Below are positions 12,459 to 64,000 of a stretch of DNA of 64,000 nt, piece after piece. The DNA comes from Ptychodera flava. Taxonomy: Eukaryota; Hemichordata; Enteropneusta; Ptychoderidae. Both the position numbers and the translations under genes were made by a program. The first letter of the stretch is position 1. Every line of letters begins with the position of its first letter. The notes under the pieces are model-generated. The model was not told the DNA's origin, made no database searches, and saw only the letters and a list, made by a program, of their open reading frames with translations. Location: positions 41,677,870-41,741,869 of the forward strand of contig NC_091939.1 in NCBI RefSeq assembly GCF_041260155.1, written 5' to 3'.

Positions 12459-12459
12459 T

Positions 12460-19858: not shown

Positions 19859-19870
19859 CAAAGGAGGGGG
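19859..19870 (+). promoter_or_regulatory. Polypurine tract
   Basis: CAAAGGAGGGGG lies three bases upstream of the 3' LTR, the expected site of plus-strand priming. Confidence 0.8.
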
Positions 19871-19873
19871 TAA

Positions 19874-41083: not shown

Positions 41084-41115
41084 ATAGACCCTAAAAACGG
41101 GTTTTAGGGTCTATG
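41084..41115. mobile_element. 32-bp palindromic insertion with 8-bp TSD
   Basis: GTATAACC occurs perfectly on both sides (41076-41083 and 41116-41123). Between the copies, ATAGACCCTAAAA and its reverse complement TTTTAGGGTCTAT flank a short ACGGG loop. An 8-bp duplication around a pure palindrome is the footprint expected of a minimal hAT-type fold-back. Confidence 0.75.
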
Positions 41116-41123
41116 GTATAACC

Positions 41124-42189: not shown

Positions 42190-43410
42190 CTATCTTTACC
42201 AGGTGTGTAGCACAGGAATGTATTGTGACACTGATGGCCTTTGTGGCGGCATTACTTCTTTCTTGATTGCGGGGTTTTTTATTTTTCTATCCCCTTTAGG
42301 TTTTGGCTGTGCAATAGGATTATCTGCTGGTGGTGCTTGGATGGAGAGGCATTTTGAGGAACTCCAGGGTAGCAGTTTGAGCATGCGATGTCTTGGTGGG
42401 CTTGCTGTTGACATGTGTTTTGTCAATGGTTGTGACAGTAACCATTGGTTAGCTTGTGAATGTCCAGATTGTTGGATTGCTTGTTTGCCACCGGTTACTG
42501 CCTTGGCAGACTTATTTACATTTCGTGCATCTGGATTACTATTAGCAGTTGGTGGTTTCGGAAGTGGCCTTTGAACCTCTGTCTTCATGTCTTGCTTATC
42601 TTTGCTGCTTCTGGCCAAGTAGCTGTCCAGCGATCACTAGTTGCTGCTATTTTATAAATGATATCTTGTATGTTTGCTGTCCGGTTATCAATGGCATCAG
42701 CATAGGTGTGACTTTCTATCCAGATTGTGTCCTCAGAACGTAAAAATTCTGAGTCTCATTGGATGACAGCTTTACCAGAAGTTGATGGTTTTGCCTTTGC
42801 TGGCCAAACCACTTTTTAACATCAGCTGTCACTTCTTTGAACAGGATGTTGAGGACTTGTACTTTGTCCCACCACAATGTAAAAATTCTGAGTCTCTTTG
42901 GACAAAAGGTGTAGCTGAAGTTGATGATTTTTCTATTTCTGGCCTAATCACTAATTTACCATCAGCATTCAATTTGCTGTCTCTCTTGAACAGTATCTTG
43001 AAGACTTGCCCTTTCCGTCTTGCTTATCCTTGGCACTGGCAGAAGCCTGACTTCTGATCAAACAGCATCCTCAGAATGAAACAATTTTGAATCTTGCTGG
43101 ATGAAATGTTTACAAGAATTTGGCACCATTTCTGGCCTAGCCGCCGGTTTATCCTTGCTGAATTTGGAAGATCTTCAAGACTCTGCTTTCTAACTATAGG
43201 TCTGTCATTGGAAATGGTACAACTTTTATTCCAAAGTGCCTTCCTCAGAATGTAAAAATTCTGAACCATGAATAACTGGTTTACCAGAAGTTGATGCCAT
43301 GATTGTTGTTTCCCGCCTAGCAACCATTTTCCCAGAACTACTAGGTTTCCTTCTTTCACCTTGAGTCACTTCTTTCCTGAAAAGTTTAGTTATATCTGTA
43401 GGTATCATAC
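42190..43410 (-). pseudogene. 5' part of the same unrecognised gene
   Basis: The minus strand from MIPTDITKLFRKEVTQGERR (43408) shows a degenerate internal repeat whose units centre on SEFLHSEEGT, DSEFLHCGGTKY and DSEFLRSEDTIW (about 43260, 42875, 42740), each preceded by a GK(P/L)VI-type block. A segment ADAIDNRTANIQDIIYKIAA follows (about 42700), then a Pro/Lys/Gln-rich low-complexity tail to 42196. Several frame changes interrupt it. The repeat with SEFL cores is visible but I know no family with it. The plus-strand frame over 42143-42574 is its shadow. Confidence 0.4.
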
Positions 43411-44384
43411 TTTGTTTGATGGATGGTGCTGATCTCTGTTATTGGAAAAAATTGAAAATAAAATGATTTACCAATAATCCTCCACAAGGAAAGGTCCATG
43501 TACTCTGTATTGTGGTGCATTAAAGGCATACAGTCACCTGTTATCTAAATATGCCCATATTATGGTCAAAGGGGCGTTCCTTGGTATTCAAAATGCCGAT
43601 GTGAGGGCAAGCCGCCACCCGCGCTTACAATTTGTGATTGGTTAGATTTTCTTTCCATGGTAACTGTGGCAAAATTGGAACAGGGGACAGTATACCTTAA
43701 ATCAGCATTTCTGTTTTGAGTAACATGCATTGATGTGCTGTCCTACCTGCTTCCAAAATTATTAAAGGGACAAATCACTCTTTGTTTAGCTTTTTATATG
43801 AAATTTGTTTCATATGAAAAGTGGATTGTGTTGTTTTACTTCTTGAATATTGCTGAAATACTATTCAACTAGACACAACTTCAACTCTTCTTGCAGCCAG
43901 ATATTGAGGGGGACATTTATGAAGTCTTTGTAATGTTTTCTTCTCTCATGTATTAGGGCACAGTCCCTTATATGAAAATGTAACACTTTCTAAAAGTGAC
44001 TAATAAGCTCGTTGAGGCTTGGTGTAATGTCACTTAGTCACTATAATAAATATCTATCTGTGTAATCTCTGATCTGTACAAAAGAGTAGTTTTGTTAAGG
44101 AATATCACCATAAATGACTGAATATGTACTGTTACATAAAGTTTTGACCTCATGTACGCTTTTGTAATGAGATCTTAATTGGTGGTGCCTTCCATATATA
44201 TACCGTGTGAAACCTGTCAAAACCGAACCCTGTCTAAACCAGAAACCTGTCTAAACTGAACCCTTTTCCCAGTCCTATTCCAAAAGAACTATATGTTAAC
44301 AGACCTCTCTATAAACCAAACACCTCTCAAAACTGGACCATATATTTCTCAGTCCCTGTATGGTTCAGTTTAGACAGGTTTTTA
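43411..44384. other. No gene seen
   Basis: AT-rich intergenic sequence. Confidence 0.4.
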
Positions 44385-44509
<125 letters not shown>

Positions 44510-44659
44510 TCAAAACTGATAAGTTACACAAGATTTAGGCATTACTCAGAGTGTTATGCTACATTTGTCCTTTGTATCTGGTGATCGCTACAGAGGAGAC
44601 ATGTGAATTGCTCTGCCACTGTTTTACACTGTGAAGATTTCCAAACTTTCTAGGTTATA

Positions 44660-44661
<2 letters not shown>

Positions 44662-44727
<66 letters not shown>
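44662..44727. repeat. (TA)n microsatellite
   Basis: About 30 AT dinucleotides with one interruption. Confidence 0.95.
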
Positions 44728-44732
<5 letters not shown>

Positions 44733-45374
44733 TTTGTAGTCATATTTTAAACATTCAGTCAATCTGTGATTTGGTGAAATTGTTGACATGTCAGGTGTAA
44801 TATATTTTGAATGAGCTGTGAATGCATTTCACACTTTCTATGCATAACGAGATGTCCAGAACTGTTGTACATAAATGGATGTTTATGATTGATATCCAAG
44901 AGAGAACAACAGTCAATCAAAATTTTCTGTGGGTATTTACACTGTTGCCAGCCATTACTTCAATTACAAAAATATGAAAATTATCTTGTAATTTTTCTCT
45001 TTCTGAAATATGTCACAGTATCAAATGTATTGTGAAATATTACAGCTTTTTTATGCTGATTTCTCATAGAAAAACGGAAAATGGTCAGAAATTTGTCATG
45101 CTTGTCATAGGAATTGCAGATTTCATAATGATTAGAAATCTGTACTTTGGAAAACAAATATCTCTGATATACATCTGACACATTAAAGTAACATGCCAAA
45201 GGGCGTGGTGAAAAATACATGTCTGATATATTAAAGTTCTGCACCAAAAATTTCAACTGAATGATGGAATTCTGATGTTTTGTAACTCAAACATACACCC
45301 CCCCCCCCCAATTGCATTTCAAACATATGGTAACCCCCAATCACCAAAGTAAAAACCAGGCTGACTCCCCCTAT
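44728..45374. other. No gene seen
   Basis: AT-rich. A poly-C run lies near 45298-45309. Confidence 0.4.
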
Positions 45375-45570
45375 GAAACAACTATTTATTCACTTATTTA
45401 GCCATATACACATATAACATTGGCATACAAAGAAATACAAAGAAAGAATTACAATGTTGAAAAAGTTCAAAAGAAAGAGATGAAACAACCCTTCTTAAAA
45501 TTACATTTTTTCAAATGTCATCAACTAATTAAAGACCTTTGCAGTGAAATGCACAAAAGAATCATCAGCA
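45375..45570. repeat. Second copy of the 28.8-kb dispersed repeat
   Basis: Shares ordered landmarks with 28790-29080, including ACAAAGAAATACAAAG-type and GTGAAATGCACAAAA blocks. Confidence 0.7.
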
Positions 45571-45909
45571 CAAGATATTGTGTATTTGTAGAATAACAAA
45601 GTCTAAGTGTCTGAAAGGGAAATGGTAGTCGGAACTGCGCCGTGCAAGTTTCTCGTTTTCAAAGTATTTCGTGCACAATATCTTGATACACCTCATCACC
45701 ATACTATTCTTGGCTGCAACATTTGAATTATACGATGTGGATTATGACAGACGTGTTTTACTTTCAGCAATCACCATCGTACCTTGGATACGGTGTTTAC
45801 ATAGGTCATGTGGGTCCCATACAACCTTTTAGTGCGGTTCCGACAAATGTATCCCTTTACAGAATTACAGTATCACTTATGAACACACTGAAGACCCTGC
45901 CGTCCCTAC

Positions 45910-46095
45910 AGGTGCTTGGAGTTGCCAGTGTAGTTGCCAGTGTAGTATATACATACTAGATAGCCCTGCGTACAGGTCTGTGTGTTCCCGGCGTTACACG
46001 GCCGTGTAACGCCGGGAACACACAGACTTGTACGCAGGGCTAACATACTAGAGAGAATGTATACTTCACGGCAACTCCACGCACCTACCTGTGGC
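45910..46095. repeat. Large palindrome with an 82-bp near-perfect core
   Basis: 45961-46042 is a loop-free palindrome of two 41-base arms with a single mismatch, centred on ACACGGCCGTGT. Imperfect arms continue outwards: CAGGTGCTTGGAGTTGCC on the left pairs with GGCAACTCCACGCACCTACC on the right. Such cruciform-capable structures suggest a fold-back transposon or the junction of an inverted duplication. Confidence 0.9.
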
Positions 46096-46789
46096 CATCC
46101 CTAACAACTAATGAACCAGTTCAATGACCCTAAAGTAAAAGCCAAACTGTTTTTTCGAAAATGCCAAATTTGGAAATTTGAAAACAAAATATTTACTCCC
46201 CGAAAGATACAACGATTTGATTATTTGAAAAAGAGAAAGTTACTTTCACAGGAAGTCAACCAGCATAATGTCAATGTACTTTCAACTGGGCGCACACAAA
46301 TCGCCGGCCGGGGCCACGGTTTCTTTCGGCATTATGAGACTGATTGCTGGTTCGTTATCGTGTGGCTCGGCTTAGAAAAATGAATTTCGAAAAAAACAAC
46401 AAACTATTACACAAGGTTCTGGGAATGCGTTGATAATTTCCTAAGAATAGCTATACCCTAACATGACACCTGATCGAAACGGTCAACCATAGCATTACAA
46501 ACGACAATACTTGTTCAGGATGACATACATATATTTTGTATACGCAATGTAAGATCATCAATGTAAGATCATCATGGAACATGATTTGAAATCGGTAATA
46601 TGGAGGTCGTCAACAGCATGCATCATGATGACTAAATTGACATTCATACGAGTAATTTGGTATTTAATTAAAACAAGTCATCGTTGATGACACAGTCCCC
46701 ACTTGTTAATGGGTACTTTGATTACATGTCCTCAGAGAGGATAGAGTCCTCTTCATTAGGTCTGTGATAAAAATACTTTTGAATAAATT
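46096..46789. other. No gene seen
   Basis: A 90-codon plus-strand frame at 46111-46383 is basic and unrecognised. No other feature. Confidence 0.35.
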
Positions 46790-47960
46790 CGCTTGATACA
46801 TGTCTGAGTTGTAGTTCAGGACATGAAAAAATCGTAATAAAATGGCCACATGTCGCCATATTGGATCGTATCACAAAACAAATCGATGTGCATATGTATG
46901 ACATAGATCAATGTCCTTGTACCAAGTTTGAATAAAATCCGTTGAGATATGCCTGAGTTATGGCTCTGTACATGAAAAAATCGTAACAAAATGGCCGTAC
47001 GGCAGCCATATTGGATCGTATCACATGAAAAATTGACGTGCATATCTATGACATTGGTCAATGTCCTTGTACCAACTTTGAATAAAATCAGTTGAAACAT
47101 GCCTGAGTAATGGCTCTGTACATGAAAAAATCGTCATAAAATGGCCGCCTGGCGGCCGTATTGAATTGTATCACAAAACAAATCAACGTGAATATGTATG
47201 ACATTGGTCAATGTCCTTGTACTAAGTTTGAATAAAATCCGTTGAGATATGCCTGAGTTATGGCTCTGTACATGAAAAAAATCGTTACAAAATGGCCGCA
47301 CGGCGGCCATATTAGATCGTATCACATGAAAAATTGACGTGCATATATATGACATTGGTCAATGTCCTTGTACCAACTCTGAATAAAATCAGTTAAAACA
47401 TGCCTGAGTAATGGCTTTGTACATGAAAAAATCGTAATAAAATGGCCACCTGGCGGCCATATTGAATCGTATCACAAAATGAATCAACGTGAATTGAATG
47501 ACATAGGTCAATGTCCTTGTACAAAGTTTGAATAAAATCGGTTGAGATATGCCTGAATTATGGCTCTGTACATGAAAAAATCGTAACAAAATGGCCGCCT
47601 GGCGGCCATATTGGATCGTATCACAAAACAAATTGATGTGCATATCTATGACATTGGTCAATGTCCTTGTACCAGCTTTGAATAAAATCGGTTCAAACAT
47701 GTCTGAGTTATGGCTCTGTACATGAAAAAATCATAATAAAATGGCCGCCTGGCAGCCATATTGGATCGTATCAAAAACAAATTGACGTGCATCTGTATGA
47801 CATATGAAGTAATCCTTGTACCAAGTTTGAATGAAATCGCTCCAGGCATCTCTGAGATATCTGCGTGAACGGACGGACGCACGCACGGACGGACGCACGC
47901 ACGCACGCACACACGCACGGACATGACCAAACCTATAAGTCCCCCCGGACGGTGTCCGTG
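46790..47960. repeat. 150-bp satellite array with 300-bp higher-order pattern and GGAC cap
   Basis: The block CATGAAAAAATCGTAAYAAA recurs at about 46822, 46971, 47121, 47271, 47422, 47571 and 47721, with GGCCGCCTGGCGGCC palindromes after it. Copies alternate between two subtypes ('CACATGAAAAATTGACGTG' and 'CACAAAACAAATCAACGTG'), giving a 300-bp second-order period in the middle of the array. The array ends in ACGGACGGACGCACGCAC, then CCGGACGGTGTCCG. Because 150 is divisible by three, minus-strand frames stay open; they are not genes. Confidence 0.9.
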
Positions 47961-48448
47961 GGGACTAACAAAGCAGTAAAATGTTAGCTGAAGACGCCAA
48001 TCTGAAGTATCATTGCACACATTCATCGTGCATGCAGCTTACACAAACATGATTAAACATTCTGAGACGTAAATTCGCGTCATTCTCTCGAAAAATGCAT
48101 CACAGTACAATCTAGTGTCTATCCACTTACGATTGGCGTAACTTGTCGTAAATTCCATGACGATGAATAAAATAATGATTTTCAGAGTGATTGCTTCGTA
48201 AGTGTTGTTTGATGAGAACATTGCTGATTCGAATACAAAGTTATGCTGTCAAAATTTAGCAAATGCGCGATAAGAACTCTGGTCCGAGAGTGCATGATGT
48301 GGCGGCATGCGCGTAGACAGAATGTTCAGTGGTGATTTGCATCGTCACCTAGGAACCGGCGCGACGTGGGCAGCGCTCTACAACTTTCGACAAATCAGGA
48401 CGAAGTAGACAACATAAAGGACGCGTCGATTCTCTTCAGAGCCACATC
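47961..48448. other. 5' flank of the RAG2-like gene
   Basis: Moderately CpG-containing sequence upstream of the RAG2-like frame. I looked for an RSS-like terminus (CAC-starting heptamer with a partner on the other side) and found only chance-level candidates. Confidence 0.4.
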
Positions 48449-49676
48449 ATGTCCAATATGGCTGCCACCGAGTGGATCGCGTACGAGATAGGAAGTGACT
48501 TGAGTACTGGCTGGCGACAGACAAAGAAACAAAGTCTTAGAGATGTAAAAGAGGGCACATATATACCCCCAGAAGGCCATGCAGCAGCAACTCTCACGAT
48601 AATGTGTTTTTGTGTCTCGGGGGAGCCCAGAGCAAGAACCAGGCTTCCTGGCATACTTCAACAAAAGAGCCATTTGCGTTCGAACTAACAGTAACACAGA
48701 GCAGCAGTTTTAATGTAAGCAACGTGCTTGTCTCACCCGTGAGTACAGGATCATCACTCACTGAGGTAACTGATGCCAGCTTATTGAAGTTGGGTAATTC
48801 AGAGTTCTTGCTGTATGGTGGAAGGTATCTCGATTCGTAGAAAGTAACCCCTGATGTTTACTATCTACATATTTCAAAATCAACCATGAAGTGGAAAGGC
48901 AACACAATCCTCTACCGAAAACATTCGCAGAATGGTTTCATACCTGAAGCGACTTAATATCTGATGACATGGCTGTCCGTTGGTAGACCTATGGTCGGCA
49001 AAATGTTAGGAACTTACAGTTACACAACTGACAACAATTCTTCATTTTCAAACCGTCTTCAAAGGAGTGGTCTGTGATTTCTGATGTGACTCTCGAAGCA
49101 CGATGCTTTCACTCATGTTCCAATTAAGATAAATGAGAGTCTTGCTTTCGTTGGAGGGTTACATTTAAGTGAGAATTGTCAAAATTACAGATATCCTCTT
49201 TGTGATATTTTCATTTTTAAGTTAGATGATATTATTTTTGTCACATGTTGTAAATGTTGATGTGCGACCAATTCATATTTCCAGTCATGCTGCTCTGTTC
49301 TTTAAACAAGATCAAACTCTTTTGATATATGGAGGGTTTGTCGATAAAGAAAAAGGGTTAAAGAAATTAGGGGAAGAATCACACAGACAAGAACCATCTA
49401 GCCTTTTGTTTCAAACTGATTTGAATTCATGTGATGTTTCTCAGACAGATGTTGGGATCCAAAATGCCATAGTTTAACACAACATGATTGAATTGGGGGA
49501 AATATTGTAATCACTTGAGGTCACCCAAAACATCAGTTATGATTAACAAGCGGCCTACTGGCCGATATAGCTCCGCTGTGATAGTTAAGTGGATGACAAT
49601 GAGGGAAAAAATGACAAAAGTGTTTGAGATATTGAACTTGAACTGGGCAAAAATGATTTTGTTTAAATTATTGTAA
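48449..49676 (+). pseudogene. RAG2-like kelch-repeat protein, broken
   Basis: RAG2 is the regulatory partner of RAG1, a six-bladed kelch propeller that in vertebrates ends in a PHD finger. Here SLRDVKEGTYIPPEGHAAAT (near 48532-48591) matches the vertebrate RAG2 segment with CYLPPLRYPAT. Kelch Gly-Gly turns follow at the right spacing: FLCLGGAQ (about 48605), FLLYGGRYLDS (about 48810), LAFVGGLHLSENCQNYRYP (about 49145-49200) and LLIYGGFVDKEKG (about 49320). The last two correspond to RAG2 'IYILGGHSL' and 'FVIVGGYQL'. PTGRYSSAVIVKW (about 49549) looks like another blade start. At least four frame changes or stops separate the pieces. The first methionine is uncertain because the expected N-terminal strand is short. 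No PHD finger is recognisable, as in amphioxus RAG2-like. Confidence 0.8.
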
Positions 49677-51899
49677 TAATAGCAAAACGTAGTAAATATG
49701 TAAATTTGGCAGTAATTATCAGCGTATTAGGTTTGTTGTTGACATAGAAGCGAAGAATGGTGAAAATGATTTGAATAAGCTAATATTGATGTCATAGGTG
49801 ACTGAAAAAGTTTGGCACAATGGTAGTAAAAATGAAAGAAGGCAATATTTGTAAAGCAAAAAGTTGTGTTTATTGCTGTAAAAATGAAAGTGAACATTGT
49901 TTTTTTAAAGTAAAATGTGGAAACTTTTTATTTAAAGTATAGAATGGAAATGAAAACTTAAAAGAAGTTATATGCATTGTGTTGCATTGATCTGAATATT
50001 TAAACCAGTACAAAAGGAAATTATTTCGTGGAGTTGTTGTAAACTTTACAAAACAGTACTGTAAATTTGAGTCAAAAATTTGTATGAAAATAAGTGGAAT
50101 CTAAGCTTGTATTTGGTAATAAAGAATGATGTGTAAAAAAGTACATGTAGTAAAAGTTTGTAAATTGGCAATGAAGAAAAATCAGGAGGAAAATGTAAAT
50201 GTAATGTAATCTTCTAATATGAACTAAAAGGATATATATATATATATATTTAAAAAGTGCTGTTGCCTAGCAGCTAAAGGGAAATAAAATATGTATGAGA
50301 AAATACATGTAATTAAAGTCTGCTTACTATCTGTTGTGATTTTCATAAAATATCAATGATAATTTTTAAATAATTTTGACCAAAATCTAGAATCAGTATC
50401 ATGTTACACATTTTTGGTTCAAAAAGGAAATAAAAGTTAGTTCAAAATGATAAAAAATATGAAAACTTTTGCATAGAAATTTAGGCGGAAAATGTGGTTG
50501 TCAGAGGGTTAATGTAATCTATACATATGTATTAGATTGGGACAAAAAATAAGAGAATTGTAAACTGAGCAGCTAATACAAATTAAGTGAAAAGAAGTAC
50601 ATATGTGATCTTCTAATTGGGAACATAGAAAGAAAAGTAAAAAAAGTACAAGTAATCTCAAGTTCTAATTGTGAATAATTGGGGAAAAAAGTAAAAAAAT
50701 TAATGTCATCTAAGTAGCTAAATGGGCAAAAATAGAAATAAATAAAAGCAAATGTAATTTGAGTATCTAATTACTAATTAAGCAAAAATAAGTACATGTG
50801 ATCTGAGGTTCAAAGTATATGTAATGTAAAACTAATTGGGAATACAGAAACAAAAAGTATAAAAATTCACATAAATCTAAGTTTCCTATTGAGAAAAAAG
50901 GAATAAAAGTAAAAAAAATAATGCAACCAGTATCTAATTGCATGAAAAAGTTGAAACATGGGCATCTAAATGGGAAGAAAACGAATTAGAAAAAATAGTG
51001 ACAACATCACTGTTCGCTCCCATATAGTTATCAAAACAAGTTAACAATTGTATGAAACGTGGACATACATGTACAGACAGACTGACATACACAGACGCAC
51101 AGAGTGATGACATTGACCCCAAGTGTGCCTTGGCCCATGGAGAGTGATAAAGACGTAACAAACAGCTGAATGTAATGATAAAATAGTTAAGTATACCGGT
51201 AGGCCTATACAGGCACTGAGAGTGAATATGTTACAGCAATTTGATTAGTTTCTTTTCCTTTTCCACTTCTGTGATAATCTTTAAGACAATCAATCTGCAA
51301 GGCAGTTTATGTATTGACAAATATGTTATCTTTTACAAGCACACAGTAAACTGTTCTTGATTTTTCATTTACAATATTTGACATGGACTGAAATACATAA
51401 CATGCAACCAATGTTTACACTTTGCCCATACACCAGATACATGGAGAAATTTCAACATAGAATCATTACTCAGAAAACCCTATACAGGGAAAAGTAAACA
51501 TTGTTTTCTTCCAGAATAGCTGGTGCATCCACATCTGGAACAACTTACAAACTTAACCAAGTACACAAGGATGATGACACAAGAGATAAAGTTAAACTGT
51601 GGTGAACTTGACTATTCCTTTCAAATCCTTACCTAACTTGACATCTTAAACTAAAATACACTGCATGGTTAATTACGCACAAAAATACATCAGGTGGACC
51701 ATTTGATAAGGGATGGTGTCTGGAAGATCGATGAGGTACATTATCTTTTTTAGGTACATTCTTTTTTCCCCACTCTCCCACCTTTTCTTTTTGTCAAACC
51801 TTCTCTGGCTGAATTTTTTATTGGCATTTGTTTGGAATTGTGTCAAAATCTGCCAGGATTTTTTTACTGCATTTCAACACCAAATAAAGTTAACCATAA
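49677..51899. other. A-rich gap after the RAG2-like gene
   Basis: Very A-rich plus strand with loosely repeated 'AAAAAGTACATGTAATCT'-type phrases between 50.1 and 50.95 kb. No gene is supported. It may be 3' flank of the RAG2-like gene expanded by low-complexity sequence. Confidence 0.45.
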
Positions 51900-52975
51900 C
51901 AAATGCTTACTAAATCACCACATTATATACTCTTAATTCCAGTAGGTATAAAATTACCAAAAAAAATCTTAAAAATAAAAGATGACAGATATCCCAGGAA
52001 AACTGACAGTTTCGCAAAGTTGCCCCAAAAATTCAAAATTCTGGATTTCAACTTAATTTCAATATATCTTATTAACAAAAACCCTAACAACCGGTTTACT
52101 AAATATCAAAGCAATCAGACTGGTAAATTTTGAGAAACAAATTTTTTGACCAAAAATGACAAAAATTGCCCCCCAAAATACAAAATTGCAGATTTCATCC
52201 TAATTTTAAACATATCTTATTAACATAAACCCTAGGAACCTGTAGACAAGATATCAAAGCTACCAGATCACAAGTTTTCGGAGAAAAATTTTTTGACCAA
52301 AAATAGCAAAAATGCCCCAAAATAAAAAAAATTGCCATTTCCAACATACCTTCAATACATTATATTGGGATTAATCTTAGATACCTGTATACCAAATATC
52401 AAAGCTATCAAATGAGTAGTTTTTGGATAATTTTTTTTTTATCAAAAATTGGGAAAATTGCCCCAAAATTACAAATATGACAATATCAATACAATTTGCA
52501 CAAGCATGACTGAGGTCATTCTGAGGAACATGAATATGAAGTTTCATAGCAATCAGACGAGCGATTTCAGAGAACAAGATTTTTTGACTAAAAAATACGC
52601 TAAAAATACAAACATGCAAATTTCATCCCAATTTTTGCACACATACTTTAGAATACCTAAAGAAATCTGCATACCAAGTTTCAACCAAATCTGACCACTG
52701 CTTACTGAGTTTTAGCCATTTGCAGGATTTTTCCTTTTTCCCCCCTCATTTGCATATTTTTGGCACTGACATGTTCATTTGAACAAATTCACATCTCCAC
52801 CCCTAGGTGCACCTGTACACCAAATACTAAGACAGTAGGTGCTACGGTTTAGGAGTTTTTGATGTGGACGGACATACATACATACATACATACATACATA
52901 CATACAGACGACATTTTTCCACCTTATATGAATACCTCCCATTTGCATATATACATATGCATATTATATGGGAGC
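51900..52975. repeat. Second array of about 145-bp units with CATA cap
   Basis: Same unit as 25.76-26.88 kb (TACCAAATATCAAAGC, TTTTTGACCAAAAAT, CCCCAAAATACAAA), in the same orientation. It ends in GGACGGACATACATACATAC, then CAGACGAC, and a short palindrome built on CATATATACATATGCATAT. Confidence 0.85.
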
Positions 52976-53118
52976 TAAAAAACTAATTAAATCTAACTAG
53001 TAATTGGAGAATTTGTTAGTCACAGCAATGTGTGTAAAAGTAAGGAGTCATTTAACAGTTTGGCCACTACAGTTGAGAGTACTAGTGATTTGCATATTGA
53101 ATTGTGTGGCAGGGTAGT

Positions 53119-54063
53119 TTACTGTTGTTGAACTTTCGGTTGGAGGAGTATAATGGGTTTGGTAATTAAGTTGTTTTTATCGTAGGTGACTTGAATGTTA
53201 CCAGCTGTCAAAAGAGTGCGTGTAGCTAATTTTATGTCAGCACAGAGATTGGCAGGATCAGGAAATGCTGTAAGATGGTTTTGGAAGATGACAAGTTGAC
53301 AGATTTTTAAGTTAATTGTCTCTCGGAAATTGAACGTAATTTTGCCATCTTGTGAGCACATATCTTTGAGTGTGGTATTATCACAATAGTTGCAGTGGAT
53401 GATATCATCTTCTGTGTCTATATCATGTATTTGCTTGTTGCATGATATGCAGTTGTGAAATTGAATGGTTTCTTTGATAGATATGATGCGACCGGTGGAT
53501 GTTGTTGTCAAGCATCCATTTGTGCTGAGCTGGTCACTGGTAATTGTACAGGTTATGGGGGGACATTCGGAGATGTTGGTATCTGGGGTTGTGACGATGT
53601 ATTTTATGTCATCACTGGTTGTTCTAATTTTAATGGGACTGCGAAGGTATGATTTTTGAAGTGTAACTTGGTTGCACAGGTCACCGTATAAAAGAACATG
53701 GCATGTTATATTGTCACTGCCTATGACAATGTCTCTTTTTGGTAAATTTCTGAAGGTGGATTGGTATTCAGTGTCGTCAATGAAGAGAACATGTCCCTGT
53801 ATCTGGTAGGTGTTGTCACCGACCATAGAATGATCAATGTCAGCTAGAGAGATAGTTGTGTAATTGCAGGCATCAATGTAGGGGAATGGAACTCTGGAAC
53901 CTGTGAACTGTGACTTGTCAGAAATGAGATATTTGGTGGTGCCTGTACTGTCGATTTCGGCTTTTATGTTCTTGATTTCGATGGCAGTTTTGTTAGTTTG
54001 ATATTCTTTAGTACTGTAGGAGACAGAATAATGCTGCAAATTCAAAAAGAAACATCTTGCCAC
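53119..54063 (-). CDS. RPA-like OB-fold and zinc-ribbon protein (part)
   Basis: A 314-codon uninterrupted minus-strand frame. The N-terminal half looks like an OB fold of replication protein A type: YQIQGHVLFIDDTEYQSTFR, then KRDIVIGSDNITCHVLLYGD (compare 'RRDI.L.D.S...V.LWGD' of RPA70), then IRTTSDDIKYIVTTPDTNIS. The C-terminal half has a zinc ribbon, CISCNKQ...IHCNYCDN (about 53390-53450), in the position of the RPA70 C-terminal zinc domain. By family it should bind single-stranded DNA in the nucleus. It lies between RAG2-like and RAG1-like genes on the RAG1-like strand. The frame begins at an internal Met and probably continues from upstream exons. It could be a mobile-element-encoded RPA homologue or a host paralogue. 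Confidence 0.55.
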   Translation of the reverse strand: MARCFFLNLQHYSVSYSTKEYQTNKTAIEIKNIKAEIDSTGTTKYLISDKSQFTGSRVPFPYIDACNYTTISLADIDHSMVGDNTYQIQGHVLFIDDTEYQSTFRNLPKRDIVIGSDNITCHVLLYGDLCNQVTLQKSYLRSPIKIRTTSDDIKYIVTTPDTNISECPPITCTITSDQLSTNGCLTTTSTGRIISIKETIQFHNCISCNKQIHDIDTEDDIIHCNYCDNTTLKDMCSQDGKITFNFRETINLKICQLVIFQNHLTAFPDPANLCADIKLATRTLLTAGNIQVTYDKNNLITKPIILLQPKVQQQ

Positions 54064-54150
54064 ATGTTACATCTGTTGAAATTGCGATTAATATTGCGAA
54101 TTTGGTCGTATTGCATTTTACTGACATAGATAACTTTTGATCCTCATTTT

Positions 54151-54530
54151 CTAATACATATTCAACGTTCCATGAAAGTCCCTATTGCAAATATTAAAAT
54201 TGTCCTTGCTTGCCAACCAATCAATAGCATACTGTTCATTTCTGTCATCATTAAAGTATGCAATTAAAACCATATTAGCTGTAACTTTTGACTTGTTTTC
54301 AGTATATTTATGTACCATTGTTTCAACAACAGTTTCTGATTCAAATCCTTGAGGCATGATGACATACCAGATATCTTGCTTGTCAACAAGTTCTATTGTG
54401 TTTAATGGCCATTGTTATCGTTATAAATGAATTCTACTCCAAACCAAAAGCTACGACACCTCCACAATCATCTTTTAGTGTAGAACCAACTTGATCATAG
54501 GGGTCCAGTGGTGGGGAGACTGTGTTTCTA
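54151..54530 (-). pseudogene. Upstream segment of the RPA-like gene, frame-broken
   Basis: The minus strand reads NTVSPPLDPYDQVGSTLKDD then CGGVVAFG (about 54525-54445), shifts frame into VEFIYNDNN, and shifts again into WPLNTIELVDKQDIWYVIMP followed by QGFESETVVETMVHKYTENK, to a stop at 54151. The pieces read as one protein with two small frame changes. I do not recognise the domain. Position and strand suggest it precedes the OB-fold part. Confidence 0.4.
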
Positions 54531-54804
54531 TCTACAGAACAAGGTTGTCTGAGAACGTGGCACATTTTGACATTACACAACTGTGTCACAATAACACAGT
54601 AACTGTAATACCTTTGGAAGCTTTGTGCGGTACTGTAATCTTTTAAATTTATCTATAAACACAAAATGTATTCCTTTAATTGCCAAGCCCAAATGTAATC
54701 ATTTCAAAAAAGATGCAGCTCCTGAACCTTTATGTCAATAATCCAACAATGGCAATAAATAGCATTTGTTCAGTATTGAGCATAAGGATTTCACAAAAAG
54801 TTAC

Positions 54805-54849
54805 CTTTCTTTTGACAGCAGATTTCGTGTAATACTTCGTTCTTGGCAT
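54805..54849 (-). CDS. Putative first coding exon (15 codons)
   Basis: A textbook small exon on the minus strand: TATATTTGCAG acceptor, ATC, then ATG opening MPRTKYYTKSAVKRK, then an AAAG/GTAACT donor at 54805/54804, phase 0. The basic peptide would suit a nuclear protein. It lies about 280 bp upstream of the next recognisable segment of the RPA-like gene and 540 bp downstream of the RAG1-like stop. Confidence 0.5.
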
Positions 54850-55388
54850 GATCTGCAAATATAATCAAAAGAGGAATTCTGTACAATCTCTTATTTAGAC
54901 CATTCAATAATACAATTTAAAATACACCTGTACGCACTGACAAAAAAATACTGGCCCACAAGGAATTAACTGGGTATGACCTATTACAGACATTTCATTG
55001 TATATAATACATGCATGAAGTAAAGGGGATTGGTAAAAATAAAAAGACATAACTTTAACATCGTGGGTAATTTACTGTTTTTCACTTCAATAAAATTGTT
55101 TTAAACTCTGATAGCTAGAGGACAGTACACGCTACGGCAAATCTGTAGAATATTGGGATGCGAGTATTCATGATTGTGAGTAAAGTTAATTATGGAAACA
55201 CTGAAAAGTCCTCTCAAAATTACTTGAAATTCCCGTTCCGTTTTCATATCATTTTCTCAAAATATACATTTGTCAAATGTATTTATCTGTTATCAATTGT
55301 TGTCAACACATGATAAAATTAAAAAAAAAGTTGAGCACTTTACAAAGTAAAATGAATCCGTTTCAAAAAAAGGCACAAAATTAGTTAC
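54850..55388. other. Spacer between the RPA-like gene and the RAG1-like stop
   Basis: AT-rich, no gene or terminator named. A weak AATAAA-like run lies near 55090 on the plus strand. Confidence 0.4.
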
Positions 55389-57310
55389 TTATGCCTTTTG
55401 CCAGTGGACAAATTTTTTGGTGTGTCCATTCCTTCCGCAAGCACCACAGCAATACACAAGTTTTGCACATTTAGCAGCTTTGTGTAAGCAGTTGCTTGTA
55501 TACAACCACTGGAACCACATAATATCCCGGGTTTCATATTGAGAGTTGTGCCTACTGTGATGACACCTCAACAGTCTAAACAACTTGTTCCCAGCCTCAT
55601 CGCCCTCACTTGACAAATCCCCAATTGACTCGGGACCCCTGGGATCTTCTATCAATTCCTGAACATGTCCAATGATTTTATGGAAGTAATTACTGAAAGG
55701 AACATATGAGAAATTATCCCTCAAAATACACCCCATCTCTACAGCTGTTTTTTATAGAGTTTTACGTCATCCTTTTTTAAGATACCTTGAAGAGACTTCC
55801 GTGATGCTCTGTATATTCTTTGACAAAATTGAAACTTGTTCATGAAGAGAACAAGGTTATTCCTTCGGCCCTCATTACTTATGAGTTCTACAACAACATC
55901 CCTGTTTTTCTGTTCAAACAGCTCTCTGGCATAATTACCTGGCATCATGAGCTCAGGATTTATGCCAAGGGTGGACTTTAAATGGCCATCTAATTGTTTG
56001 GCTCCCAATGATAAATTTCAGCAATTTCTCTGATTATTATTTTTTTCACAAAATCACCAATATTTATATCTGCATGTGTTGCATCAATAGACTTTTCATG
56101 AGTTTCAAATCTAAACGAAGGTAAACTTTTCACTCCAAGGTTACATTGTTTCAGTGCATTGATTGAAAGCTTGTCTGGATTCTGCTTTATGTATTCAGCA
56201 GTTTGAACATGCGAGTCATATGACCAATTTACAGTGTAAGTTCCAATTTTATTTTTTGCATCAGATCTCACTGCTGTACAGAGGTCACACATGTATGCTG
56301 AACTAGCACCCTGCAGCCCAGATTCAGCCTGTGACAATTTCTCATCCAGCATTGTGTGCATGAAATGCAGTTTATGTTGTCAATATTTATCCCAAACTTT
56401 AATTAACATTACTTTTCCTCGTAGCCATCTCTCTCAGCATTTATTTCTGTAAACAGTACACTACATGTACTGCTCCAATTTTCATCAGCGAGGGCAGTGA
56501 GAACTGAGTGATTTTCTTTTACACTGGAGGGACAATCCTCAAGAAAAACATCTATGGATTTCCCCTCTACACAAAATGAAAACCACAAAGCTTTTGTCAG
56601 GGAGACTTGTATCAGCTGCATACTTTTTGACTTTAACATCCCACAGACCATCTTCCCCATCTTTTATTATTGTGTCTAGAATTAGATTTTCATCATTTGG
56701 ATCAATACAGTGTACTTCCAGTCCCGTTACAATGTCATCATCAAGCTCCTGAAGAGCCTTTGCTATGGCCTGATCATAAGGATAACGAGATCCTAAGGAT
56801 GTTCGGGACAGCAAAGTCAGAAACATTGAATGGAATAGCAGCACATGCATCCAAAGGTTCAGTGTCAGATACACTAGAAGAGCTTGCATGATGATATTTG
56901 TAAGTATCTCCATCATCTTGAACCCAAAATTCTACATTGCTTGGCATTAGTTCCCACTCAAGTTTGCTCAGTGATTCAATTGACTGAAGTACGAATGAAA
57001 CACCCTTACTTTTCAATAGACAATACTGCTCAATATACTGTGTCTTTGTCTGAAGGGTATCAATTCTCAATGCCAAACTATCCTCAACGTTAAGTTCAGA
57101 TCTCAAATTGTCTCTGAAAAGACCAATGAGCTTATTTTTTCTATCCTTTTCACCAGATTCATATAGACGGTTTGCTAAAAGGAAAATCAGGACATCTATT
57201 TTGATTTCATAATTAGTGGCACAAAAACTATCAACATCTCTTTCAATACTGAGTACCCTTCTTCGAGCATAATACAGAGGAATTTCAAGGAGTAATAACT
57301 TTTAGCGACC
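55389..57310 (-). pseudogene. RAG1-like recombinase core, broken
   Basis: RAG1 is the DDE recombinase that cuts V(D)J segments; relatives mobilise ProtoRAG. From 57300 the minus strand matches the vertebrate core in order: EIPLYYARRRVLSIERD and IFLLANRLYESGEKDRKN (dimerisation region), WELMPSNVEFW, IAKALQELDDDIVTGLE, DGEDGLWDVK with the D600-equivalent Asp (about 56651), LTALADEN with the D708 equivalent (about 56485), INAERD, DEKLSQAESGLQGASSAYMC-DLC with the C727/C730 pair (about 56289), IDATHADINIGDF, MMPGNYARELFE, NYFHKIIGHVQELIE with the H937/H942 pair (about 55682), and DLSSEGDEAGNKLFR with the E962 equivalent (about 55597). It ends QWLYTSNCLHKA and a tail CCGACGRNGHTKKFVHWQKA. At least five frame changes occur. 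Confidence 0.94.
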
Positions 57311-57369
57311 TTTCCCAACGTACATTAACGTACATTATCCCTTCTCCGTTTACAGCATGTGTTTTCATG

Positions 57370-57518
57370 TGTAAAAATATCTCAAATTTTAAACACTGAA
57401 GAACAAAACAAGCAGTTCAATTGTAGATTTGCATAAACTTCAGGTAAAAATCTGACAGTTGGGTGATCAATTTTAACAATGTCTATTTCATTATTTTCAT
57501 AGTCAATAATTTCACGAT
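57370..57518 (-). pseudogene. RAG1-like RING end and second zinc finger
   Basis: Directly inside the fold-back insertion's left flank, the minus strand reads CPIYREIIDYENNEIDIVKI, then DHPTVRFLPEVYANLQLN, then CLFCSSVFKI, a stop, and DIFTHENTCCKRRR. It aligns in order with vertebrate RAG1 after the RING: 'CPSCRYPC', a linker, and the finger '[22 protein letters not shown]'. The last RING ligand is Tyr here (CPIY for CPxC). The segment joins the RING exon at 59.25 kb across the insertion, in a different frame. A possible acceptor at AAAAG (57304) leads into the core. Confidence 0.75.
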
Positions 57519-57528
57519 ATATTGGGCA

Positions 57529-59246
57529 GGTATGTAAGGGTAGCTCAAACCCCTAACTGGGACCGCCAACTGGGACTCCCAGTTGGCTTAAAATGCACTC
57601 TGGGACCGGTCCCAGTTCACTTCTGGGACCGGTCCCAGAAGCGAACTGGGACTGGTCCCAGTTGGCCTCTGGGACCGGTCCCAGTTGGCTTCCAGGACCA
57701 GTCCCAGTTGGCTTCAAAATTAACTCTAGGACCGCGGCCGCGGTCCTAGTTGGCCTCCAGGATCAGTTCCAGTACACTTCAGGGACACATCCAATTTGTG
57801 AACTGGCACCACTATGAAAAAAACCAGTTACTGGTACTTCATACTAACAATCTGTTAATGTTTTCATCTTTTTAGCCTGCCATAATCGTAGGTATATGCG
57901 ACATTTAATAGATCCCAACTATTAAAGGCCAATTTGAAAGTAATTTAATTCTTTGTTTTGCATCTGTGTGCACATTCTAGGGTTTTTTCTACTGCCAATG
58001 GCTTGAATAGGATTTTACTGAGTAGCTTTCCTGTTTACAAAATTTCACATCTTGTAGTATAACTTGTGATGATCACGATGAAAGGAAGTTTCTGATGATT
58101 TTTGTATAGACACTTATGTTGTTACATGGAAATAATCAAGAAAATATAACGTGTGTTTTGATTTTCTTGTATGTGTTTTAGTACTGCCTTCCCGCTCATG
58201 TTTCGAAACATTGGAGTGGGCGCTAAACAAAGAATTTGATTACTTTGGCCTTACTGTGATGTACTCATTCTTAGCACTAGTAAGTCCTGTGCTATGGTGT
58301 GTGTTGAAATCTTACTGCACGGATCACGTTGATAGATAGACTGTGTACTGAATCAGATGAAAAAGGAGATGAAAATAACTGTGCAAGACTAGCAATTAAC
58401 TCATCAAACAAACATTGAACGAAAACCCGCTGTGTTTTAATAGAATTGCAATTCACTTGCAGTATATGAGTGGTATCTTAATTTGGACCTAGTTATATTT
58501 CTGAACAGATAGACGTAAATAGGAGAGGGGCAACCATTAGCGGATGCATGTACTGGTACAGCAGAATCGATCATTTCATTGTTATGCAAGGAAAAAATAG
58601 ACATCAATGAGGTTATAATAGTCCCATTACATTTTAAGACAAAGGGTTTTGAATATACAAGTCAACAACATGCACTGCTTCAAAACTTCATTGACAGCTA
58701 GTAGCTATATAGTATACGCTGTCTCAGTGTTTTCTATTTCAGTCTGTATGTCTGTCATAGCTCTATGGAGCTACGAGTCCCAGAATTGAAATGAGACCTG
58801 ACTGTCCTAGATGAAACAGGGAGATGTTAGCTTTCCCACACAAAAAACATAGTACATAATTTTCACAACAGTACAGAGAATATGAATAAAACAAGTGCAT
58901 ACAATTGCTACAAAAGGCATATAGTGGGATGGGAAACTTCTTTCCCATTAATATTATGGTTTCGTCATTACAGCATGGAGGTACCTTAACCTCCATGGTA
59001 CAGTTCATTTGATACAAGTGCGTTTCCCGGCAATCATAATGGTCCCAGTTACGTCGAGCTACGCTTCTGGGACCGGTCCCACTTCGCTTCTGGGACCAGT
59101 CCTAGAGGCCAACTGGGACCGGTCCCAGTTTGCTTCTGGGACCGGTCCCAGAAGCGAACTGGGACCGGTCCCAGAGTGCATTTAAGCCAACTGGGAGTCC
59201 CAGTTGGCGGTCCCAGTTGGGGTTTGAGCTACCCTTACATACCTCC
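57529..59246. mobile_element. 1.7-kb fold-back element inside the RAG1-like gene
   Basis: Flanked by ATATTGGGCA on both sides (57519-57528 and 59247-59256), a 10-bp duplication. The ends are inverted repeats starting GGTATGTAAGGGTAGCTCAA. Each arm (about 240 and 210 bp) consists of a 20-25-bp unit GGGACCGGTCCCAGTTGGC repeated about ten times, each containing the palindrome GGGACCGGTCCC. The interior (57.84-59.03 kb) has no transposase but includes a possible captured exon (58184-58339). A 9-10-bp duplication suggests a Mutator-like mechanism. It is younger than the RAG1-like gene it interrupts. Confidence 0.85.
58184..58339 (+). pseudogene. Possible captured terminal exon with a membrane segment
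   Basis: A pyrimidine-rich acceptor (TTCTTGTATGTGTTTTAG, ending near 58181) is followed by a frame reading CFETLEWALNKEFDYFGLTV then MYSFLALVSPVLWCVLKSYC and a stop at 58339. The hydrophobic stretch would span a membrane, and the ending TDHVDR looks like a natural C-terminus. I do not recognise the gene. It sits wholly within the fold-back element, so it may be a piece of host gene picked up by the transposon. Confidence 0.35.
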
Positions 59247-59707
59247 ATATTGGGCATGTATTTGCAGTGGCATTTTATTGACAGCCAATTGTACATGCAT
59301 GTTGCACAAGAAATGTGGTTACAGTGTGTTATCACAGGCTGACGGGAAACACAACGACATATGGAACAGTTAAACAAACAAGCAGTGTCGGCATCTACAA
59401 ACCGTTCTATTTCAAAACCTGTATCACTAAAACACATTCAACTGTACTAGAAATACCTAATCTGTCTTTTATCAATTTATTTACATCATCTAATTGGAAG
59501 TCTCCAGTTACATTTGTTGCATTTGCCTTTTGAGTTCCACTTTCCTTTGCATTGCATTGTCTTTCTCTGTGTCAGTCCTAAAATCACTATCAATTGTTTT
59601 TGTTTCTCTGTACTTTCTGCCTGAAAAACATCCCTTTCTCTTATGGGGTCTCCCTCTATCAGCCACCAATGCATACGAGTGGTCAACAGTACTACCGATA
59701 CTTCCTT
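59247..59707 (-). pseudogene. RAG1-like N-terminal exon with RING finger
   Basis: A strong acceptor (TTTTTTATTGCAG, 59708) begins a frame EGSIGSTVDHSYALVADRGR then PHKRKGCFSGRKYRETKTID. The basic GRP motif recalls an AT hook or the GGRPR motif of the RAG1 nonamer-binding region, although here it precedes the RING. After frame changes, QLDDVNKLIKDRLGISSTVE leads into FNCSICRCVSRQPVITHCNH-ISCATCMYNWLS, a C3HC4-type RING (about 59385-59290) matching RAG1 '[29 protein letters not shown]'. The exon runs into the 10-bp duplication of the fold-back element. In RAG1 the RING is an E3 ubiquitin ligase. At least two frame changes make it a relic. Confidence 0.75.
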
Positions 59708-61556
59708 CTGCAATAAAAAATGAAAAATATGGTTATATGGATTGAATATTATGTATGAGCAGCTGTAACACAATGCCAAATATGTGTGATACATGTGTAC
59801 GTCCATGCACTTGGCAGTAGGGACAGTTTTTGATTATTCAAAACAAATGTCCTAGCATGCACAAACCACTTATCCATTTCAAGAGACACATTATAAATCA
59901 AAGTTTACTTTTTGTTGGAAAAATATGACATCATTATTATCATAATTATTTTGTACTTTTTCACCTGATCTTGATGCCGAAAGTTTACAAATAAAATTGT
60001 CAAATTGTCAAAACATTAGCAACTAGTATTACATGCTTAAGTTCAAAGTAAGACGAACCTAATAATTAATAAATGTAATAGTAAATATGTAAAATTAAAT
60101 AAAATTTAACAAAAGAACGCTAAAACTTCATTGCCAATAGTAAACAAAACTGCCAAAAAAATATTACTGTCCCTTTGTTTCCTAGGTAACGCTTTAATTA
60201 CTGTGCCAGTGGTTATCAAATTACTTTGTACTACTTTTATTATGTTTAATATATTGCTCTACGCTATCTAGTAAACTACCTTTGGAAAAACACAGCTGGC
60301 AATTGTCAGTGTGTGGCTTGAAATCAACACACTTTAAACTTTTACGAAACTACCGTTGCTCTTGCTGATCACCAGATTCACATCTAAACCTAGTCAGTCT
60401 TCCTACAATTAGGACGCAATCATGACAGCCCTGCGCCCACACAGAACTTGACGGGGCTTAGAGTGTCGTTTGGGCCTGAAACGTTCTGGGCCCCGTCTAT
60501 TAGTTATGCATAGTTTACTTTACTACTTTAATCGGAGGCGCACTTGACACCTTTTGATCGTCTCAGCAAACGATCGGCTGTTCGAGTTATACGGTAACCA
60601 CCCGACTAAGACTTATCAAGTGCAGCGCCACTGCCAGTCGCGACGCGTCGACGGCCACTTTCACCTAATTACATATTCATGACATCATCAGCAGATTTCA
60701 TCAGTCGCTAGATGCTAACGCTAATTGTCTCCTCACGTCACAGGATCAGGAAAGGTCGTATCACAGTTAGTTCATATCTCCTTCGCCGTTTACCTTTTTT
60801 TCTCTGCACAAATGTTAACCAAAAATACCGAAGTCCAATATGTACATTGATTTATTAGCAGGACTTTTTTTATATTTTGTTAATTGCAGTGTTGTGCGAG
60901 TCTCCATCACCAGTTGTACAACTTGTTGCCAGCAAGCGGACTCAGCTTGCTAACTGGTGCACCAACGCGCGACATAACCACAGTCCATCGGCCTGGTTCC
61001 GGTACTATCGTCGCGTATGTGTATTGAGACCCTGTCAGACCACAATTCTTTGATTAAAAAGGGTAAGTGCGCAGCAGTTAGCGAAGCAAACATTTTCTGT
61101 CAAGAAAACTGCTGAAACGCCTCTGATTTTATTGGAAAAAACGCATAACTTTCAACATTGAGACATTTCACGTGACACCACGAGTAAAAATAAACGGTTA
61201 GTTTATTTGTTTGCGTCCGTCTTTTCAAGTTGTCCATCACTGTGACACGATTGCTCATATTCCAGTTAAAAATCACTGCATAACCGCTATTTATTTCGAC
61301 CACTTTTCTGCTGAGATTTTTTTTCTGGTGACTACCCCGCAAGATTTTGTTGAGATCTCCGTATAAGCGTGAACGAAAACACTCTGAACGGAATACCAAC
61401 GCATCAACCAGCTGTTGCAAAAGTCAAAGTTCATCCGTTTTCACAGATAAGGACAATCAGAGGTGTCAAGTACATGGACATAAGGTGACTTCTACACCTG
61501 TCCATTTCTATAGTGTTATTTAACTAATCCAAATGCGTAAAGAAAAAGCTTGTTGT
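59708..61556. other. 5' flank of the RAG1-like gene
   Basis: An open minus-strand stretch from ATG 59877 (MDKWFVHARTFVLNNQKLSL) could be an earlier exon but has no independent support. 60.4-61.0 kb is CpG-richer and might hold a promoter. A CACAGTG on the minus strand near 61237-61243 and a CACTATA near 61509-61515 resemble RAG-type heptamers, but neither has a matching partner with a shared duplication. Confidence 0.35.
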
Positions 61557-61563
61557 ATTCTAT

Positions 61564-63242
61564 CAGTGTTGGAAACTGGCCAAAATATTTGCCAGACATC
61601 AGGACTGGTAACTTTCAAAACTTGCCTGTCCTGCCAGAAAGTTGCCTGTCCTGAATTTTTGACAAATCCATTCATTCAAAAAACACAAACCATTATGTAC
61701 TTCAAACTGTAAACAACTTTATTTTCAACATGAGTATTAACTGTGATCTTACAAGCAAACTGTTCTGAATTCCACCGTTTGAAATGAATTCTAATCCGGA
61801 CTTGAATACAAAATTTCTACAATAACAATGCTGATAACACTCTGATTAATTAATTAGTCAATTCAAACACACTTTGCTCATATCGCTCAAACAGTTTAAA
61901 GGTTTCACGATAGAGGTTTTAACAACGGGGAAACAATTTTTTTTAAATTTGTCTCCATTTTATGCCACTTTATCGTATAAAACCAAGATGCAATCTGTCA
62001 TCGAATTGGTACTACAATCAACCAAACGTAACTGAAAAGATTGCTGAGCAATACAGAAAACATCATCTGGCAAAGAAAATCAAAAACTGAGAGAGCTGCC
62101 ATATAAGTAATAAAAAGTTGGCGGCATGAATTAAATAAACTAATACTCTCCTCAGACCAAACCGATTTCACAGGCCGTTTACAGCAAATATTGTTAACGA
62201 AACCATGAAACCTGGGAATGGCTAAACACAGAGAAACAAGATTTATTTCTCGAAGCAGCCCTTCACAACATGCTTTTCAAACGCCGGAAAGCAGGCACCA
62301 ATATCGACCCAAAATCTATTACAAAGTCCACTAAAAATTGACACAAAACTAAAAGTTCGGATAATCGATTCAAATGCCTAAAACAAACTAATCGTTGACA
62401 GATTAGTACAACATTTACTGTTACATAACGAGCACTAGCAACGCTCAAACTATGCCCTAAAACAAAAATCCTTATAAGCGTCCAGAAACTCCGGTCGATG
62501 CTGGGTCATGTTAATTATAATATGACACCACACACCGGATCGCTCACTATAGAGTCAGTCAATAGTGGCTAACTCTCTCAATAACGAATCTGGCTTCTCC
62601 TTCTCGAGGACGAAGATGACTTCATCACACAACCAAGCGGATGGGATACAAAACAATATAGAGCGACTGATGAAGGAACCCCATTTTTGGTTCCGAAACA
62701 CCGTTAAGACGAATCACTCAATCAACAAACCGGTTTACCGGGGACCCAGATCACATGTATTCCACACAAAATAAATGCAATGATCCTTTTATTCACCATA
62801 TCGTAATACTAAACAATCTTGGAAGAGCCGATGTGTGGAGTTGCCCTCATTTTCCATAATATCCTTTATATCTTTCCTTTATATCTTTATATTTATAGCA
62901 CTGACTGATATCGCGCAAATCTTGCTTAGTGTGAGATTTACTAGTATGAGCGACTTCCTGTTTACCCGTGTTTACATGTCTCGCTTGCATTGCGTTCCGG
63001 CGTCACACAGTTGCAGAGTTTCGGTAGCATATTAAAGCGCGTCAAAGTCGGACGTATTGGCATACTACATTTCGTTTATTTTACACAACATCTAGAAGCA
63101 GCTGATCGATGAGATTACTGGGTATGCCGTATGGGCTACTATTGAGAGCCCGACACACGGACGTGGAAGTACAATTTTCCTCCCGTCCGACTGCAAAGTT
63201 ACCCGTCTCGGACGGGAGGACGGGCGGTAGTTTCCAACGCTG
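61564..63242. mobile_element. hAT-like non-autonomous element with ATTCTAT duplication
   Basis: Starts CAGTGTTGGAAACT and ends AGTTTCCAACGCTG, a 14-bp inverted repeat with one mismatch. Both ends directly abut ATTCTAT (61557-61563 and 63243-63249). CAG(T/C)GTTGGAA-type termini and a 7-8-bp duplication fit hAT elements. Subterminal 'CCTGTCCTG' on the left and 'GGACGGGAGGACGGG' on the right look related in inverted form. No transposase is recognised; a 69-codon frame at 62565-62774 is unassigned. Confidence 0.75.
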
Positions 63243-63318
63243 ATTCTATGCCATAATTTTTTTCTTGTTTTTAACTTGGTGTGTGAAATTAATACCAGCA
63301 TTATCATTTGATTTACAG

Positions 63319-63379
63319 AAGAAAAAAAGAAGTCTGGAACATAACCGCTTTAAACAGCAAAGGCGTTTCCATGGTGGTG
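63319..63379 (+). CDS. Possible small internal exon
   Basis: Acceptor ATTTGATTTACAG and donor GGTG/GTAAGT bracket a 61-base exon reading KKKRSLEHNRFKQQRRFHGG. Both splice sites are close to consensus and the peptide is very basic. The gene cannot be identified from this alone; neighbouring exons would lie outside the window. Confidence 0.35.
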
Positions 63380-64000
63380 GTAAGTCAACATTTGTAAACC
63401 TGATATTTAATTTTACAAAACATGTCATGTTATGGTATGAATTGAATTGTCCACAACAAAACAAAATTTTCAAAGATTTGTTTGACCAGCCATACAGCTA
63501 GAATAGTTGGAGGTCAAACAGGGAGACTTGATCGAAGCACCTGTTTGTTCAAATAAAGAGATCTTGATTTTTTTCAATAGGTGTTACAAAAGAAATTAAC
63601 ATGTAAATTATTTCAAGGGAACTGCCTCCTCAATTGATCATTTACTTTTTTCCTCAAAATATGGCATTTGTAGTACAATGGAGGTTAAACATGGTAGTAC
63701 CTTCCAACTGTTATTTCTGCACCAATTTAATGATGATTTTGTAACTTTGACTGTAATTTCTAATCGTATTTCTCATTGATAAAACTAAATAATCCATTGC
63801 ATATGTTAAATTATTGTTCATATGTTCAAATCTTTGAAAATTTTACAAAATTTCTATCTCCTCTCTCTAATGTATTATTTTCTCAGTCATTTGAAATAGA
63901 CATGAATATCAGTGTGCTTAAAAGTAAGATCTCAGAATACATGTAAAAATTCCACAATTTCCTCTACACATGGGAGATAGGCCTGACTTTACTGCTGAAC
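63380..64000. other. Probable intron or intergenic sequence
   Basis: AT-rich with no coding signal. Confidence 0.4.

Follow-up and report, generated by a model that had tools for sequence, protein, structure and literature searches.

Are the two broken genes that face each other at 48449-59708 of this 64,000-nucleotide (nt) stretch of Ptychodera flava DNA (contig NC_091939.1, positions 41,677,870 to 41,741,869; hereafter the window) the remains of a RAG-like (RAGL) transposon? A sequence-only reading had placed a RAG1-like gene (RAG1L) on the minus strand and a kelch-repeat gene with RAG2 signatures (RAG2L) on the plus strand within 48449-59707, and had taken them for a relic of the ProtoRAG type that had once been a single mobile unit. 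These coordinates agree with ours, the left one being the first methionine of the RAG2L reading and the right one lying within one base of 59708, where the first RAG1L exon that we read has its 5' end. We conclude that the locus is very probably a fossil RAGL transposon in an animal genome, with a convergent RAG1L and RAG2L pair most like that of family RAGL_B. The locus is a relic, and both of its genes are broken.

The minus-strand gene can be identified as RAG1L on strong sequence evidence. Its core and C-terminal tail occupy 55392..57289 of the minus strand in six degraded pieces (57289-56795, 56805-56569, 56570-56412, 56412-55993 with one stop, 55999-55748 and 55748-55392). When these were joined across the frame breaks into a 640-residue read-through, residues 34-614 matched the Pfam RAG1 family (PF12940) at E 4.7e-59. 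Raw single-frame pieces were also compared with the family, with no read-through: 56379-55993 matched at E 5.3e-13, 56017-55742 at E 1.3e-6 and 55751-55392 at E 2.3e-15, while piece 57301-56777 (E 0.026) fell below the cut-off. The four pieces follow N-to-C order on the minus strand, and three of them pass the cut-off singly. PDB and the protein database were searched with the read-throughs. The best PDB chain for the core was amphioxus ProtoRAG RAG1L (6b40_A; E 1.7e-120, 407 bits, query 10-613), vertebrate RAG1 entries followed at E 6e-58 to 1e-55, and Transib (6pqn) matched the C-terminal part only, at E 2.8e-4. Two pieces submitted alone also had ProtoRAG RAG1L as their best chain (E 1.7e-22 and 1.5e-26). 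Of the 7998 candidates scored in the protein database, 16 matched the core at E<=0.001, with 33-41% identity; all 16 carry PF26100 and PF26101, and the four that are named are three from Pinctada imbricata and one from Amphiura filiformis. The description as a ProtoRAG-type relic holds in the wide sense, but amphioxus ProtoRAG (407 bits) is not a nearer match to the core than pearl-oyster RAG1L (458 bits); the brittle-star sequence scored 384.

Upstream of the core, the parts of RAG1L run along the minus strand from 59708 to 55392 in the order RING piece, zinc region, core and tail, which bears out the order that had been read from the sequence. The outermost part is an exon in two frames (59425..59708, minus), recognized by sequence reading and with no significant match of its own. 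A splice-acceptor-like TTTTTATTGCAG precedes it, and its basic RGRPHKRK stretch resembles RGKPKKRK of the brittle-star relative P0011. The first part of the RING (ZDD*) follows at 59255..59425 (minus; CSICRCVSRQPVITHCNHISCATC...) and was identified by its match to the RING of RAG1L relatives, the best in tblastn being P0006 at E 3e-7; against the Pfam RING profiles, piece 59437-59105 was weak (best E 0.0062, below cut-off). The end of the RING and the following zinc region (CPIYREI...; 57328..57531, minus, one stop) were delimited by sequence reading and alignment with relatives. No upstream C1/C2 zinc exons were found at E<0.5 to the right of 59.8 kilobases (kb), as far as the window end at 64000, with the 16 relatives as queries. 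A RING is reported in mollusc, and not in nemertean or echinoderm, RAG1L (PMC7204232). By alignment, the brittle-star RAG1L P0011 carries one.

The catalytic residues are in place. The active-site residues named for BbeRAG1L (D701, E764, D811, H894 and E1063; PMC7204232) were mapped by spacing to positions 234, 297, 344, 427 and 596 of the 6b40 chain. All five are identical in the window RAG1L. YMCDLC retains the two Cys of ZnC2, and NYFHKIIGHV the two His of ZnH2, at what we take to be the ligand residues. The residue that we equate with mouse R848 is Met, hydrophobic as in protostome RAG1L. The tail holds Cx2Cx3GH at 55448-55422; the last Cys (fifth ligand) of the CTT* motif Cx2Cx3GHx4C lies in the next frame, past a run of A.

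The plus-strand kelch gene (48449..49474) is likewise degraded, and was read in the pieces 48449-48604, 48601-48954 (one stop), 48960-49112 (two stops), 49102-49233 and 49247-49474. Its kelch-blade GG motifs stand at 48619, 48817, 49153 and 49331, spaced 66, 112 and about 59 codons apart, as might be seen in a five-bladed protein in which one blade no longer had its GG. In author-chosen frames, the read-through matched Pfam kelch at E 2.5e-8 with 34 bits, against a Pfam cut-off of 50. Four PDB chains were listed for it at E<=10; ProtoRAG RAG2L was the best of these (E 0.0031, query 196-304 on chain 197-308), and no kelch protein was among the other three. The best-matching part lies at 49038..49360 (plus), equivalent to residues 197-308 of ProtoRAG RAG2L (6b40_M). 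When this 112-residue stretch was used in a frameshift-tolerant scan of both strands of the window, the top score of 79 fell at +49038-49360, the runner-up (47) at +48646-48834 within the same gene, and the minus-strand maximum was 46; across 300 shuffles the scores averaged 46.4 and peaked at 60, short of 79 in every case. The scan is supportive and not independent, and the shuffle figure is somewhat flattering, because the stretch was delimited by alignment to this very region. The PDB match, the scan and the position of the gene together lead us to call it RAG2L with moderate confidence, and the kelch gene with RAG2 signatures proposed earlier is upheld to that degree.

Both genes have decayed. 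The RAG1L core shows five frame changes and one stop, and RAG2L four frame changes and three stops. Introns were rejected as an explanation of these frame changes, since successive pieces either abut or share 1-11 nt and leave no room for them; the exceptions are an insert described below, a 38-nt gap (57328/57289) and, in RAG2L, gaps of 5 and 13 nt. The window RAG1L keeps 91 of 116 columns that are invariant in 13 relatives, while relatives left out one at a time keep 91-100%; one of the 25 lost columns (M1) is an edge effect, being the start codon of shorter relatives. The alignment also shows a gap of about 10 residues near 55996. The RING region is interrupted by a foreign element of 1.7 kb (57528..59246, no strand assigned), which has perfect 26-nt terminal inverted repeats (TIRs) at 57528-57553 and 59219-59244 (AGGTATGTAAGGGTAGCTCAAACCCC) and subterminal arrays of the palindrome CTGGGACCGGTCCCAG. 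Its target-site duplication (TSD) of 9-10 base pairs (bp), ATATTGGGC(A), is found at 57519 and 59247.

RAG2L (plus) and RAG1L (minus) converge, their 3' ends at 49474 and 55392 being 5.9 kb apart, so the tail-to-tail arrangement at about 6 kb was correctly described. The two genes would once have formed a single mobile unit, because by the published rule neighboring RAG1L and RAG2L genes are convergent and belong to, or derive from, RAGL transposons. A live RAG1L-RAG2L complex would have bound terminal repeats resembling recombination signal sequences, and its RNase-H-type active site would have cut the ends of the element, which would have inserted with a 5-bp duplication; this mechanism is established for ProtoRAG. 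Once inserted, the copy may have been released from selection, after which small indels and stops would have broken both genes and a second element would have entered the RING region. The transposon ends would have decayed past recognition or would lie outside the window.

The results that weigh against a fossil RAGL transposon concern the assembly of the two readings, the RAG2L match, the ends of the element and the phylogeny. The RAG1L and RAG2L read-throughs were pieced together by eye, which flatters their composite scores. The sequence match of RAG2L is weak (E 0.003). Its C-terminal piece alone matched RAG2L at 0.0043 and an unrelated enzyme at 0.0048 in PDB, the N-terminal half had no PDB match at E<=10, and of two kelch open frames submitted singly, one gave an antibody chain at 0.61 and the other nothing. 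The search suggested by the sequence-only reading for both genes came out significant for Pfam RAG1 and ProtoRAG RAG1L; no Pfam RAG2 family was among the matches listed at E<=10 for the RAG2L read-through, and kelch stayed below its cut-off. None of 1025 protein-database candidates matched that read-through at E<=1. A PHD finger is reported in every invertebrate RAG2L except that of amphioxus (PMC7204232); neither its full invertebrate nor its full vertebrate pattern occurs in the six frames of the window, in a scan that requires one unbroken frame, so that decay could hide it. The shorter middle PHD pattern occurs once, at 39367, distant from RAG2L. Taken together, these results would suit an unrelated kelch gene or pseudogene lying by chance beside a real RAG1L. 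We regard such a coincidence as quite unlikely, as ProtoRAG RAG2L is the best PDB match and aligns in the same register, the other three chains listed are not kelch proteins, the scan peak of 79 exceeds the shuffle maximum of 60, and the tail-to-tail position matches published pairs (PMC7204232).

The ends of the element were sought through the TIRs of protostome RAGL transposons, which begin with CAC (consensus CACTWMCAAACKTYKBB) and are accompanied by a 5-bp TSD (PMC7204232). No CAC TIR pair with a 5-bp TSD rose above controls in the flanks 40000-48460 and 59700-64000, though decay may conceal the ends, or the right one may lie past 64000. In these flanks, 105 left and 39 right ends gave five TSD-matched pairs, the best two agreeing at 11/20 positions against up to 12/20 in offset controls, and the consensus itself reached 13/17 in the flanks and 14/17 elsewhere. 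With no such ends and no PHD pattern, the earlier claim of one mobile unit went uncorroborated. In a midpoint-rooted tree of 19 rows (16 relatives, 12 of them unnamed, with one amphioxus and one vertebrate sequence, the latter presumably mouse; RAGL C or D were not knowingly included), the window RAG1L had an end branch of 2.41 (median 0.57) and sat at an open fork in no supported group, so that its family placement is not given by the tree. The lack of ends above control is also what would be seen if a host-domesticated RAG1L-RAG2L locus were decaying here with its ends lost long ago. Sea-urchin copies are held to be domesticated (PMC9885083), and protostomes and sea urchins are reported to have paired loci that lack TIRs (PMC7204232, PMC9885083). 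We consider such a history unlikely for the window: two broken genes, 25 of 116 invariant residues lost and a foreign insert indicate no present constraint, although a single copy cannot separate a domesticated past from none. That the breaks are sequencing or assembly errors in an intact and possibly active pair is highly improbable. Two of them do coincide with six-A runs of the minus strand (55753-55748 and 55418-55413), and all five active-site residues are retained; read errors, however, do not produce a 1.7-kb insert with its own TSD, the alignment gap near 55996 or the loss of those 25 residues, and a 315-codon frame between the genes is unbroken. Error was therefore rejected as the sole cause of the breaks. 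A relic of a Transib transposase was rejected as well and has next to no probability: Transib belongs to the same superfamily and 6pqn resembles the C-terminal part, but its E of 2.8e-4 compares with 1.7e-120 for ProtoRAG RAG1L, and the window gene has a RING region and a Cx2Cx3GH tail, whereas Transib is described as having no N-terminal non-core region (PMC7204232).

A fossil RAGL transposon remains the preferred account, and of the known systems family B would be the closest. RAGL_B of bivalves (oysters, pearl oyster and mussels; PMC7204232) shares the RAG1L core with a Cys/GH tail, the RING and a convergent kelch gene, and the nearest named relatives of the window gene are the RAG1L sequences of Pinctada imbricata, at about 40% identity. 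It differs in that the window genes are broken, no TIR, 5-bp TSD or PHD was found with them, and the window RAG1L forms a long branch in an open fork. Amphioxus ProtoRAG (6b40) is the best solved relative of both proteins and is alike in its tail-to-tail genes, its five active-site residues and the absence of a visible PHD; unlike the window pair, at which neither was found, it is intact with TIRs and a 5-bp TSD (PMC7204232). Jawed-vertebrate RAG1/RAG2 share a homologous core and active site and are a convergent pair, but they match at E about 1e-57, the window has no vertebrate-type PHD pattern, and its RAG1L tail is of the invertebrate Cys/GH type. Transib, of the same superfamily, is a single gene without RAG2 (PMC7204232). 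By its description, the damaged RAG1L-RAG2L (TransibSU) core of Crassostrea gigas, a protostome, is a decayed pair like the present one (PMC4411706, PMC7204232).

That damaged pair of the Pacific oyster was reported by Kapitonov and Koonin in 2015 (PMC4411706), and intact and decayed RAG1L-RAG2L pairs are described in molluscs, a nemertean, echinoderms, amphioxus, a hemichordate and cnidarians (PMC7204232, PMC4411706), with homologs reported in 173 species (PMC9435367). Fossil RAGL pairs have thus been in the literature since 2015 or earlier (PMC4411706, PMC7204232), and the present locus is one further decayed copy. It is another fossil in the record of the transposon thought to have given rise to V(D)J recombination, a dead copy with a RING-bearing RAG1L whose active-site residues are still in place, and it changes no conclusion. 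Pattern searches for relatives in viral contigs (16 matches) and prokaryote genome contigs (18 matches) yielded none in either, and two repeat patterns had no match in viral contigs.

The 315-codon frame between RAG2L and RAG1L (53122..54066, minus) is open throughout, with possible upstream pieces to 54866. It contains a zinc-like CxxC...CxxC motif, and by eye it resembles an oligonucleotide/oligosaccharide-binding fold with a Cys-pair zinc motif, as in a single-strand DNA-binding protein of the replication protein A kind. No Pfam family scored above cut-off, none of 719 database candidates matched at E<=0.001, and the predicted structure was unusable (mean predicted local distance difference test score 29). 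The frame seems likelier to be a younger nested element than a third transposon gene. A distinct RAGL lineage, in which the mobile unit carried this third gene and RAG2L lacked the PHD independently of amphioxus, seems to us very unlikely.

The window as a whole is mostly AT-rich (GC 0.30-0.50 in 2-kb steps). ARAGORN found no tRNA in it, and nothing in Rfam reached the gathering score. A Gypsy-type retrotransposon occupies 11696-20871, with zinc knuckle, reverse transcriptase, RNase H and integrase within 13246-18303; repeats shared at 11696/20382 and 12137/20824, 8.7 kb apart, are as expected of its long terminal repeats. A transposase at 37283-38880 (plus), which we take to be of the Tigger/pogo type, lies in three overlapping frames, of which the first and third were scanned and match HTH_Tnp_Tc5, CENP-B_N and DDE_1. 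Tandem arrays of units of about 146-150 bp are found at 46778-47922, followed by an ACGG/ACGC microsatellite, and at 26099-26645 and 52016-52329; they resemble the Pearl/HINE elements described in oysters (PMC7492417). On the minus strand, 30546-32624 holds three near-identical open frames (SYLPSLHLHCRPLSQSALLPMTVINPPSQP...) of a dispersed sequence.

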